Of a stretch of 64,000 bases of DNA, positions 35,387-63,732 are shown piece by piece. Made by a program: the position numbers and the translations under genes. Within the stretch, counting starts at the first letter, position 1; each line of letters begins with the position of its first letter. The notes beneath the pieces are model-generated. The model was not told where the DNA came from. It saw nothing but the letters and a program-made list of their open reading frames with translations, and did no database searches. The DNA comes from Paraphaeosphaeria minitans (taxonomy: Eukaryota; Ascomycota; Dothideomycetes; Pleosporales; Didymosphaeriaceae). Location: contig WJXW01000001.1 of assembly GCA_015832175.1 (NCBI GenBank), positions 806,001 to 870,000 of the forward strand, read 5' to 3'.

Positions 35387-36874
35387 CTACTCATCATCCT
35401 CGTCGTCGTCCACAACCACCCTTCTCTTTTTCGACCGAGCGACCACATCCTCGTCTTCGTCGTCATCGTTGCCTCTGCTCCGCTTTGGACTTCCCGATTT
35501 CCGGCTCCGGGGCTCTTCAATGATGCCCTCGTCGTCATCCTCGTCGTCATCGACGACTTCGGGCTCCTCGTCGCTGTCGGCGATGAAGTCGTCCGACTCA
35601 TCGTACTCGTCTTCTTTGTTGCCTCCACGTCGAGCATAAGCGTCGTCTTCGTCGTCGCTCCAGTCCTGGTGTCCACGACGAGCCTGCGTCCGCGGCTTCT
35701 TAGCTCCACCTTTCCTTCGGCCCTCACCGCCTTCGAGCATGTCGGCATCAAGACCATAGCCGCCCCTAGGCTTGCCCAATACGCGATTACTCCGCTCCTG
35801 CTCCCTAATGGCATGCTTCTCCCGCGCCTTCTGCTGCTTCAGTTTCTCCTTGTAGTGTGCCTCTTCACGTTGTCGACGAAGTTCAGGATCTTCGTTTACG
35901 TCGATGAAGGAGATGGCTTGGTTGGCATCGTCGCGGCCTCGGGAGGCAGCGGCTGCAAGGTCGTTCTGCAGCTTCTCCAACGCTTGGTCTTTTGTGTTCG
36001 TCGTGGGGGCCACGGACAAGAAGATGGTGAGCTTGTTCGTTACGCGCAAGACGTTGGGACCTTCGCAAGGTGCCACGAGGTACGTGTAGCTCTCCTTGTT
36101 GTGTTCGTCTTTCCGCCTGCCTTTGATCATGGTAGGCGTGGGCACTACAGGGTGTGCCTGTGGAGGCGCAAGCATCTGCGCACTGATCTCGTAGTGATTG
36201 ACCGGGTCGTTGGCATGCTGCAGCGTAAGAGAGCCGTCGGACCACCGCAATATGCGTGCGTTGGACTGTAGGTTTGAGGGGTCAGATGGCGAGCGGCGCC
36301 ATCGGATGGTGGTCATGGCGGTGTTGAAGGCAGAGAAATGATCAGACGCGGGCTTGTTCGAGTGGTGGTCTGTTGTCGGCGGCTGGAAGGTTTTGTGGGA
36401 GAAGGCGGTGGGGTCGATGGACATGAAGGTCGGGATCTTGAGGAGGTAGACCTCGCCGTCGCTGGGCTCGGGCACGGGGTGACGCGCGATTTCGGCGTCC
36501 TCGAAGGTGAAGTTCTGATTCTGCGTCTCGGCATCGGGCGTGTCCCTCTCCGTGAGGTCGTTGCGTTCCTCGTCATCGCCGGAGTCGAGGTCTTCGTCAT
36601 CGAGCTTGCGCTGCCTGTGCGTCAAGTCAGCGCCGCAGCACAGCAAAGGGCAGATAACAACTTACTCAGGCTGGTCTGCGTCGTCGTCATCATCGCCAAA
36701 GAGATCGCCATCCAGGTCGCCGCCGCCGTTGTCGTCGTCGTTGTCGTCGTCTTCTTCTTCTTCTTCTTCTTCTTCTGCTACGTTCGCGGGCGTTCCAGCG
36801 GCCTCTTCTTCTGCGGCGGGCGCGCTGGCTGGAAAGTCTTCGTCCTCGGACGGCGCATTCGAAACATCGCTCAT
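35387..36874 (-). CDS. LEO1: Paf1 complex subunit LEO1, 478 aa
   Basis: Two exons: 36874-36666 and 36614-35387 (1437 nt), with a 51-bp intron GTAAGT...CACAG. The first 70 residues are extremely acidic (Glu and Asp runs, then DGDLFGDDDDDADQPE). The folded core includes VYLLKIPTFMSIDPTAFSHK, NARILRWSDGSLTLQ, YTYLVAPCEGPNVLRVTNKL and FLSVAP, all typical of Leo1. A basic-acidic C-terminus follows with RSKKRRVVVDDDEDDE. Leo1 joins Paf1, Cdc73, Ctr9 and Rtf1 on RNA polymerase II to promote elongation and histone modification. It is divergent from MOB2. Confidence 0.95.
36751..36776. repeat. CTT microsatellite encoding the LEO1 glutamate run
   Basis: Eight and two-thirds perfect CTT triplets; on the coding strand these are GAA/AAG-phase repeats giving the Glu tract near residue 35-42 of LEO1. 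Likely length-polymorphic between strains. Confidence 0.8.
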
Positions 36875-37265: not shown

Positions 37266-38585
37266 ATGGCGTCCTTTTTCTCCAGCGTGTGAGTGCTTGG
37301 CATGCGCCTCTCCCCCCAACTGCTTGCAGCAGCAATGCGTCTGCGTGTTTCGAACCGCTCAGTCGACGTTTGTTTCACCAGCTGTGCTATGCTGTGTCTC
37401 CTCTAGTCTTCACTAATTGTCACCTTCCTCGCTTAAACCAAGTCCTTCGTGTCTCCCCTCAATACCTGTACCGCTTTCTAACTCCCACCAGACGCCAAGG
37501 ACTGGCCGGACGCTCCAACAAGAGCAACAACCAGCAGGGCAAAGGCGGCAACGGCACCCCTTCACCAACCACCAGCGGACCATACTCGCCTTCTACCGCC
37601 CCAGGCCAGACACCAAGCTTCCCCCCCATGCCCCATTCCCCCGCATTGTCCTCCGCCATGTCTTTCGAGAGCCAAGCTACGCAGGAGGGGGCATCCTCTG
37701 GTTCGCGCCGCCCACCGTTCTTCTTCCGCGAGGAGTACTCGTCTTTGATTGTCCGTGGTAACTTCATGACTTTGGCTGCAAAGCCCAACCTCGTCGAGGA
37801 GGGCGAGTGGCTGGCGCATCAAGGTACGTTATGGCCCCGGATCCCTCTGCTCACGTGATCAGTAACTAACCCAGCTCGCGTGAGCAGTCGTCGAGCAGTA
37901 CCGCTTGCTAGAGCAGATGATCAACATCATCAAGGTACCGGATGAGAGGACCGGAAAGCCATGCTGCAACCCAGAAGTGTGCCCGACCATGTCGGCCAGC
38001 GGCCACACGTACACATGGCTCGACAACAACAAGAAGCCCATCAAGATCCCCGCCATCCAGTACATCAACCTCGTCCAGAAATGGATTTCAGGCAAAATCA
38101 CCGACCCCTCCATCTTCCCCACCGACACCGCCCGCTTCTCAGACTCAGCCTCGAGCTACGCCTCAGGCTCCCTCACTCCGTCATCTACCCCTCAGCCCCT
38201 CGGTCCTACCAGCATCAACGCCCCCCTCTCGCAGCTCTCCGGCCGCGAATGGCTTGGCAAGAGCTCCGGCTTCCCCGAGACCTTCGAGTCCGACATCAAG
38301 AGCATCTACCGCCAGATGATGCGCTGCTACGCTCACATCTACCACGGCCACTGGCTCGACCCCTTCTGGCACGCGGGCGCCTACAAGGAGCTCAACACGT
38401 GCTTCGTACACTTCATCAACGTCGGCAAGCTGTTCAACCTCATCACTGACAAGGAGATCGAGCCCATGCAGCCTCTCGTCGACCTGTGGCTGTCCAAGGG
38501 CTTGCTGCCGCCGCCGCCCCAGGCCGCCCAGGCCCCGAAGGAGGGTGCGCCTCCGAGCGGTACGCCGCAGGGTGTGGCCGTGTAA
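37266..38585 (+). CDS. MOB2: MOB2-like kinase activator, 350 aa
   Basis: Three exons: 37266-37288, 37492-37823 and 37888-38585 (1053 nt). The first exon is only 23 nt (MASFFSS plus part of V) and is followed by a 203-bp intron. Joined, the start reads MASFFSSVRQGLAGRSNKSN. A disordered Ser/Pro/Gly region leads into the Mob/phocein domain: LVEEGEWLAHQVVEQYRLLE, NPEVCPTMSASGHTYTW, AIQYINLVQKWISGKI, then MMRCYAHIYHGHW. The Cys and His positions coordinating the structural zinc are present. An insert of about 50 residues rich in Ser/Thr/Pro splits the domain (DSASSYASGSL region). MOB2 activates the NDR kinase Cbk1/Orb6, controlling polarity and cell separation. Confidence 0.9.
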
Positions 38586-41640: not shown

Positions 41641-42237
41641 CTACTGCTTTCCCCATCCGATTGTGGAATCCGGGGGACCCAATCCGAACGTAGGAGGGGT
41701 CGTATCGCGCTTCTCCTTGCCCCATGTAACCACCGTTGAAGGGGGACCCAGTTCAATCGTGTCATCAGGCTTAGTCGAATCCCTCTTCTCCTTGCCCCAT
41801 GTGACCACCGTGGTAGGAGGAGTGAGTATTATCGTGTCATCAGGCCGCGTCGAGTCCCTCTTTTCCTTCGACCATCCGATGGTGGAGTCCGGAGGCCCCA
41901 GTCCGAACGTAGGAGGGATCGTGTCACGCTTCTCTTTTCCCCATGTTACGATAGTGGTGGGCTTCCCGAGCCAAAAAGAGTCGGTTGGAGTGGGAGCACT
42001 GGCATCACGCTTCTCTTTGCCCCAGGTAATGACAGTAGAGGGAGGCCCAAGTTCGAAGGTTGGCGGACCTGTGCTAACAGTGTCTTGCACCTGCAAATAG
42101 TCAGTAACGATATGTTGGTTGGGAGGATCGCACGACGAGTGCTAGAGAGTCCATACCTCCGGCTGCGCAATGGGCAGCCCGCTCACTTTTACGAAGAATG
42201 AGCCAGCGGCTAACACCGAAATCAAACTGTACTGCAT
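41641..42237 (-). CDS. Secreted Kex2-processed repeat precursor (KEP / RiPP- or pheromone-type), 176 aa
   Basis: Two exons: 42237-42157 (27 codons) and 42090-41641 (149 codons plus stop), with a 66-bp intron GTATGG...TTTGCAG. Exon 1 encodes a signal peptide, MQYSLISVLAAGSFFVKVSG, then LPIAQPE. Exon 2 is entirely repeats: six units of 28, 27, 23, 25, 25 and 21 residues. The first five end in KEKR, the classic Lys-Arg site of the Golgi protease Kex2; the last ends GWGKQ at the stop. Unit cores end in TVITWGKEKR, TIVTWGKEKR, STIGWSKEKR, TVVTWGKEKR or TVVTWGKEKR. No cysteine occurs. This is the architecture of alpha-pheromone precursors and of dikaritin-type precursors, whose excised peptides act as signals or become cyclic peptides. 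The peptide sequence matches none I know. No UstYa-type oxidase or tyrosinase gene was recognised nearby. Confidence 0.85.
41644..42090 (-). repeat. Six in-frame precursor repeats
   Basis: Units at 42090-42007, 42006-41926, 41925-41857, 41856-41782, 41781-41707 and 41706-41644. Units 3 and 6 are nearly identical (PPTFGLGPPDSTIGW), as are 4 and 5 (RPDDTI/KPDDTI followed by PPTTVVTW/PPSTVVTW). Unit 1 shares its head with 3 and 6 and its tail with 5, so it looks like a hybrid. The pattern implies recombination between units. Confidence 0.9.
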
Positions 42238-62924: not shown

Positions 62925-63732
62925 GACTTGGTTCGTAACGCTGACCAGAATGCGGGAAAGGAAAGGAAAGGAAGTTACAATGAGGTTGAACGATTTGGAG
63001 CTACGTAGGAGGGATAGCAATCTTGAATGATTTGGAGCCACGTACGAGGGATAGCAATGTTGAATGATTTGGAGCCACGTACGAGGGATAGCAATGTTGA
63101 ATGATTTGGAGCTACGTAGGAGGGGTAGCAATCTTATACCTAGGCACTCTGCGACAAGACGTGGAGTGGAGCAAGTTTGGCAATGACCTCGCCGCATCAC
63201 CATCCGATCCTGGCGTCAGTCCGCGGCTAAGGTACACAGCAAAACATCCTGTCTCATTGAGGGCCAATTACTGCCCTCTCAATCGATGAACTGTGGCCTC
63301 GGATGTCCATAAGGATCGTCTGCGACCCGAGTGATGTCCGATGCATAGGTGCAAAAGCGGGGCTACAACGGAATCTGGCCGCTCACTACCTAGGTACCGT
63401 AGCGCGATGCGGAGCGCTGAGGTAGTGACAGCACCTGGCGGGGTAGACTAGGCCCTTGGCCTGCATCAATGTTGTTGTATTCTCGATAAAGGTCACTTAT
63501 TAGAAATGGGATGGTGAGTTCGTACGAGGTGGGCATCATCTCCGTGTCGGAATCGTAGTGTGCGGAGACTTTCCGTCAGCAAGGACAGCCAGCAAAATGT
63601 ACGAAGCACACCTAGACTAGCCCGATTGAACAATGGCAACAACGGTCGGGCAGACTCGTGCTTTTTCGACATTGACTGCTTCCTCTATCCCAACGAGTCT
63701 ATAGGTACTTGCATCTACATAAACATGGCTGG
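62925..63732. other. P450 promoter and downstream region of fumarylacetoacetase
   Basis: 808 bp. It contains the purine run GGGAAAGGAAAGGAAAGGAA near 62953-62972 and the four-copy 37-bp repeat. No gene seen. Confidence 0.5.
62986..63133. repeat. Four tandem copies of a 37-bp element in the P450 promoter
   Basis: Copies start at 62986, 63023, 63060 and 63097, each exactly 37 bp and beginning TTGAAYGATTTGGAG. Each contains either CTACGTAGGAGGG (a perfect CTACGTAG palindrome, copies 1 and 4) or CCACGTACGAGGG (copies 2 and 3), then TAGCAAT. They lie 62-209 bp upstream of the P450 start codon, so they may be repeated binding sites for a regulator, or a minisatellite. Confidence 0.92.

Follow-up and report, generated by a model that had tools for sequence, protein, structure and literature searches.

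This locus raises the question of what is released from a short gene of Paraphaeosphaeria minitans that consists of a leader and a run of similar repeats, and of what the released products might do. The gene lies in the window, by which the whole analysed stretch of 64,000 nucleotides is meant, and had been picked out from the sequence alone as a precursor of several similar short peptides released by Kex2.

Gene model and repeat units

The gene runs on the minus strand from 42237 to 41641, with its start codon at 42237 and its stop codon ending at 41641. These are exactly the limits given in the original prediction, in which the strand was absent. The precursor of 176 amino acids is encoded by two exons. 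Exon 1 (42157..42237) carries the start codon, a signal-peptide-like leader and a short pro-region (27 residues), and exon 2 (41641..42090) carries residue 28, the six repeat units and the stop codon. The intron between them (42091..42156, likewise on the minus strand) is a 66-bp GT..AG intron in phase 0, in which a branch-like site, TTACTGAC, was recognised by eye. Its removal is required, because the unspliced reading runs into an in-frame TAG. The leader, MQYSLISVLAAGSFFVKVSG, is followed by the short pro-region and then by the six units; it was called signal-peptide-like by eye and because relatives in Alternaria and Bipolaris have similar leaders.

Translation bore out the predicted layout of six imperfect units after the leader, with units 1 to 5 ending in KEKR. 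All units lie on the minus strand. Unit 1 (42007..42087, residues 29–55) and unit 2 (41926..42006, residues 56–82) are 27 residues long, unit 4 (41782..41856, residues 106–130) and unit 5 (41707..41781, residues 131–155) are 25 residues long, and all four end in TWGKEKR. Unit 3 (41857..41925, residues 83–105) has 23 residues and ends in GWSKEKR, and unit 6 (41641..41706, residues 156–176) has 21 residues, ends in GWGKQ at the C-terminus of the protein and is closed by the stop codon at 41641–41643. The units fall into two sub-types, one with T-[VI]-[VI]-T-W or similar (units 1, 2, 4 and 5) and one with PDSTIGW (units 3 and 6). When residues 21–176 were shuffled 20,000 times, five KR dipeptides were never reached (shuffle mean 0.5), and KEKR, observed five times, occurred at most once in any shuffle. 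Composition does not yield five KR sites.

At the DNA level, part of the units is covered by a 75-bp tandem repeat (41699–41868, 2.3 copies, 81% matches). The pN/pS ratio between units was 0.30 (units 4 and 5), 0.33 (1 and 5), 0.50 (1 and 4) and 0.32 (2 and 5), and between units 3 and 6 eight of 20 codons differ, six of them silently. One antisense frame gave similarly low values (0.35–0.60) for the same four pairs, implying that the silent-site bias alone cannot fix the reading frame; homology does so, in favour of the minus-strand frame. With differences between units that are mostly silent and homologues that match the frame, the open reading frame behaves as a coding gene.

Relatives and predicted maturation

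A single-sequence search of the protein database, covering proteins of 0.55–1.75 times the query length, revealed no near-identical protein, and the gene seems to lack annotation in the protein records of P. minitans. The search gave 11 relatives among 87 candidates. A profile search gave at least 34 relatives (7,997 proteins scored), all 11 of the former among them. Organism names were available for 11 of the 34: four from Bipolaris, two each from Alternaria and Ascochyta, and one each from Boeremia, Stemphylium and Lindgomyces. One species was checked for each of these six genera, and all six belong to the Pleosporales. The relatives have the leader in common, as well as a core that resembles DTIELGKPSTxVTWG and leads into KR or KEKR; several of them share the intron position with the query. 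At this position, three predicted proteins (P0006 compared with P0001, P0016 with P0013, and P0033 with the query) contain an in-frame insert with V as its first and Q as its last residue, which is what a phase-0 GT..CAG intron left unspliced would give. Judged from the protein letters alone, these inserts in at least three predicted proteins would support both the orthology and the intron.

These results bear on whether the reading frame is a working gene at all. That it is a chance or decayed repeat would agree with the lack of a near-identical database protein, but the homologues, the intron position conserved in several of them and the silent-site bias make this extremely unlikely.

The ends of the cores were counted in 34 proteins, the query and P0001–P0033 (P0034 was left out, and some of the entries are fragments or near-duplicates), with a simple Trp filter and with a dibasic site taken as KR, RR or KK ending at most eight residues past the Trp. 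Of 149 core ends, 107 led to a dibasic site, 29 to the protein C-terminus and 13 to neither, one of the 13 being a Trp within the apparently unspliced intron of P0033. The dibasic sites are thus mostly conserved, and the objection that the original prediction had raised against itself, homologues without conserved KR sites, does not apply. In the relatives (query left out), 78 of 91 dibasic sites were followed by D, E or Q.

The internal units of the family end in WGKR (44), WGKEKR (18), WSKR (7) or rarer forms. The 29 protein C-termini, some of them from fragments, end in WS (15), WGKE (8), WGKQ (2), WG (1) or otherwise (3). Accordingly, 24 of the 29 (WS, WGKE and WG) are the ends that an internal unit would have after a Kex2 cut and trimming of Lys-Arg, which fits maturation of the Kex2/Kex1 type. 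From this comparison of sequences, the mature ends in the family are probably WG, WS or WGKE. The mature end in W-G/S-K that had been proposed for the window gene has to be revised, since Kex2 cleavage and Lys-Arg trimming would leave WGKE, WSKE and WGKQ. The predicted trimmed peptides of units 1 to 6 comprise 25, 25, 21, 23, 23 and 21 residues, with calculated [M+H]+ values in linear form of 2644.314, 2705.346, 2215.092, 2542.304, 2472.214 and 2172.061. They are acidic (charge −1 to −3) and mildly hydrophilic (GRAVY −0.48 to −0.85), and their cores are cysteine-free with a conserved Trp end, as had been stated.

The string W-G-K-R can also be read as an amidation signal. A genome search for PF01082 (peptidylglycine monooxygenase) gave no match, and the control genomes gave none either. 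The genome contains one P_proprotein (Kex2-type) match, at C5:219098, as expected of a single Kex2. Kex2 is described as preferring an aliphatic residue at P4 (PMC8528282), and the P4 residue of the KEKR sites in the window gene is Lys, a point against the Kex2 reading.

A second precursor with a similar core

When the window protein was compared with the whole genome, a weak match was found on contig C6 (E 0.29). It belongs to a minus-strand gene (C6:1830550-1832463) for a secreted-looking protein of 622 amino acids, which is identical to PMIN03_002807 of P. minitans over the 361 residues searched (100%). PMIN03_002807 has 598 amino acids; the first 60 residues are the same, and by eye the difference in length falls in a Glu-Pro-rich stretch, indicating that the acidic repeats of this gene vary in length. 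Its units include SDQITFVPPTASLSWGKR and PNSIGIQPPRVSFSWGKR. It has SWGKR ends and shares with the window gene, in the same register, a core approximating D-x-I-x-[LI]-x-x-P-[ST]-x-x-[VI]-[ST]-W-G-K-R. Unlike the window gene, it encodes acidic Pro-rich spacers and a Cys-bearing C-terminal region within its 622 amino acids, and its intron, of 45 bp, lies elsewhere, inside the leader. The C6 precursor had no match over the cut-off in Pfam or NCBIfam and none among PDB sequences.

A search with the C6 protein gave 26 proteins among the matches listed (7,991 scored), its own record included, and 12 of them carried organism names. P. minitans, Karstenula, Melanomma, Byssothecium, Lophiotrema, Periconia, Bimuria and Delitschia were checked and belong to the Pleosporales; the remaining four named organisms presumably belong there as well. 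The two families were compared over the 14-residue stretch preceding each W[GSDNTE], which gave 113 distinct segments for the first family and 275 for the C6 family. With profiles applied across the families in both directions, the in-register score was beaten by none of 2,000 column permutations in each direction (z 4.5 and 4.4), and it exceeded the scores at all 16 shifted positions. The first-family profile gave a mean of −11.3 bits on the C6-family segments, and in the P. minitans C6 gene four of 12 segments scored above zero with it, implying that the two families are well diverged. On these sequence comparisons, common descent of the core in both families is likely, convergence being the alternative.

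In the C6 family, D, E or Q follows the dibasic site at 168 of 177 sites. XA or XP follows it at 43 of 177 sites, compared with 12 of 91 in the first family (query left out). P0034, which was found by the first-family profile, has two of seven segments above zero with both profiles (three of seven if a weak one of 2.7 bits is included). This partial protein of Lindgomyces ingoldianus (161 amino acids) has WGKR as well as WGKEKR ends, and EADA past KR, and so mixes features of both precursor families.

The genome was also searched with patterns meant to pick up additional copies of the core; these patterns are blind to units ending in WGKEKR, those of the window gene included, and may miss other copies. 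The first pattern gave one chance match, and the second gave that chance match again, together with three matches in the C6 gene (one match in the control). A WGKR-gap-WGKR pattern, with one simple-repeat match against three control matches, was uninformative.

Class, alternatives and known systems

Kex2-processed repeat proteins (KEPs) were defined as a class by Le Marquer 2019 (PMC6339444) and Umemura 2020 (PMC7329392); their hallmarks are a leader, a minimum of three similar units set off by dibasic sites, and units making up most of the protein. The window precursor has six units of 21–27 residues with five KEKR sites, where at least three similar units of 8–100 residues between dibasic sites are called for, and its repeats span residues 29–176 of 176, where Le Marquer 2019 (PMC6339444) sets a threshold of 15% of the protein. 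We therefore regard the window gene as very probably a KEP precursor. The claim that it was previously unrecognised falls for the class, which dates from 2019–2020, and holds at most for the peptide family, whose relatives are already in the databases as hypothetical proteins. The window protein had no match over the cut-off in Pfam or NCBIfam, in line with the claim that it fits no known family, and none among PDB sequences. None of the motifs that the results section of PMC6339444 names corresponds to its core. Among the 838 KEP types of Umemura 2020 (PMC7329392), type G-9 covers 14 genera including Alternaria, Bipolaris, Ascochyta and Stemphylium, with a DUF3328 neighbour in 0 of 48 cases (PMC7329392); with this overlap in genera, it could be either the window family or the PYG pheromone. 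The window family may already be present among these types, unnamed in a supplementary table. Full-text literature searches (outside supplements and figures) with the core strings gave no match that was fungal by title, and searches with the relatives' locus tags gave no paper.

Among repeat precursors cut by Kex2 are those of the dikaritins, and those of victorin and epichloecyclin are of this type. The proposed likeness to ustiloxin, phomopsin and victorin precursors held for the layout, and membership of their type was not supported. It is very unlikely that the window gene encodes cyclised dikaritin-type RiPPs modified by UstYa-family oxidases: each core contains a Trp, with which Trp-based cyclisation is conceivable, and UstYa matches elsewhere in the genome (at least 27 match rows genome-wide) could act from afar, but the closest UstYa match (PF11807) on the window's contig, among the matches listed, is at 1,100,041, 252 kb from the gene, and none of the six cores contains Tyr. 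Among KEP genes with UstYa (DUF3328) neighbours, the mean distance was given as 3.09 genes (PMC7329392). A Pfam scan of 28 other open reading frames of the window gave eight over the family cut-off (Leo1, Mob1, two glycosyltransferase types, an acyltransferase, a permease, a methyltransferase and a short-chain dehydrogenase), with no sign of a peptide-modifying cluster among the 28. The Leo1-like (35390–36661, minus strand) and Mob1-like (37884–38582, plus strand) genes near the precursor are ordinary housekeeping neighbours, and the window also contains a 37-bp tandem repeat (62986–63135, 4.1 copies, 92% matches). The likeness to alpha-pheromone precursors, also proposed, likewise held for the layout, and membership was not supported. 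The genome has a Ste2 receptor gene (C2:734773-735653, E 5.1e-73), and pattern searches of the genome revealed no convincing pheromone gene of the PYG or two-cysteine type. With Ste2 present and the fungus's own pheromone unaccounted for, an alpha-type mating pheromone precursor was retained as an explanation of the window gene. A PYG...GKR pattern with one mismatch allowed gave no match in the genome (three in the backward control), and a two-cysteine pattern gave 14 (three in the backward control), none with a repeated dibasic core in its frame. The only exact PYG match, at C1:892036, was rejected, being in a frame different from that of the covering 163-aa open reading frame, which is transporter-like by eye. 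Dothideomycete alpha-pheromones are described as having PYG[L/M]P[I/V]G or two cysteines, and Pleosporalean ones PYG[L/M]P[I/V]G (PMC6339444). The window cores have neither, and an XA/XP dipeptide for Ste13 follows KR at only one of five sites (DA, DT, DS, DS, DT). Moreover, the window-gene family occurs in Alternaria dauci and A. sp. BMP 0032, in whose congener A. brassicicola a PYG pheromone is named (PMC6339444). A pheromone role is accordingly very improbable.

The reading that we favour, and consider reasonably likely, is that of a KEP giving linear secreted peptides; the alternatives as to biological role overlap with it. Directed to the secretory pathway by its leader, the 176-aa precursor would be cut by Kex2 after the five KEKR sites, and a Kex1-like carboxypeptidase would take off Lys-Arg. 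Six acidic, presumably linear peptides of 21–25 residues, ending in TWGKE, GWSKE or GWGKQ, would then be secreted to act extracellularly; our guess is that they most likely serve Pleosporalean fungi as linear signals. That the product is linear, rather than a cyclised RiPP, is fairly probable; in mushrooms, KEP peptides have been detected that are linear and minimally modified (PMC9769878). That the peptides signal, rather than having a surface or antagonistic role, we put at slightly less than an even chance. A point against the favoured reading is that kep knockouts of Coprinopsis cinerea had no detectable phenotype (PMC9769878). A structural or surface role on hyphae, like that of Rep1 (repellent) of Ustilago maydis, a Kex2-cut repeat precursor (PMC8528282), would suit relatives spread across several Pleosporales families, in which a general hyphal role could be expected; the acidic, mildly hydrophilic cores count against this, and we think it possible but rather unlikely. 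Many KEPs have been suggested to act on other organisms (PMC6339444, PMC9769878), which here would be host plants or, P. minitans being a mycoparasite of Sclerotinia, other fungi. As far as the alignment shows, however, the core is conserved across genera and not diversified by species, so that such a role is unlikely.

More tentatively, the two precursors may belong to a Pleosporales-wide peptide hormone family with one Trp-ended core (about DxIxLGxPSxxVTWG), two unlike precursors and a receptor other than Ste2, a conjecture that we consider speculative. The short precursor would then present bare repeats and the long one acidic spacers and a Cys-bearing tail, and P0034 of Lindgomyces would be a link between both. 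The role is known for few KEPs. The core here is compact and conserved, relatives of the gene occur in well-studied genera, and a second precursor carries the core too, so that synthesis of the peptides, detection by mass and functional tests are all within reach. Should a signalling role be borne out, a large fungal order would have a peptide hormone that is not a mating signal.

Compared with known systems, the window precursor shares its layout with the dikaritin precursors of ustiloxin and phomopsin and differs from them in the distance to any UstYa match and in its Tyr-free cores. It shares layout and expected processing with ascomycete alpha-pheromone precursors, from which its core, neither PYGxPxG nor two-cysteine, sets it apart. 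With Rep1, the likeness, by description and not by sequence, is in the Kex2-cut repeats. With KEPs, it has in common the layout of a leader, here signal-peptide-like, the similar units between dibasic sites and the coverage of most of the protein by these units.
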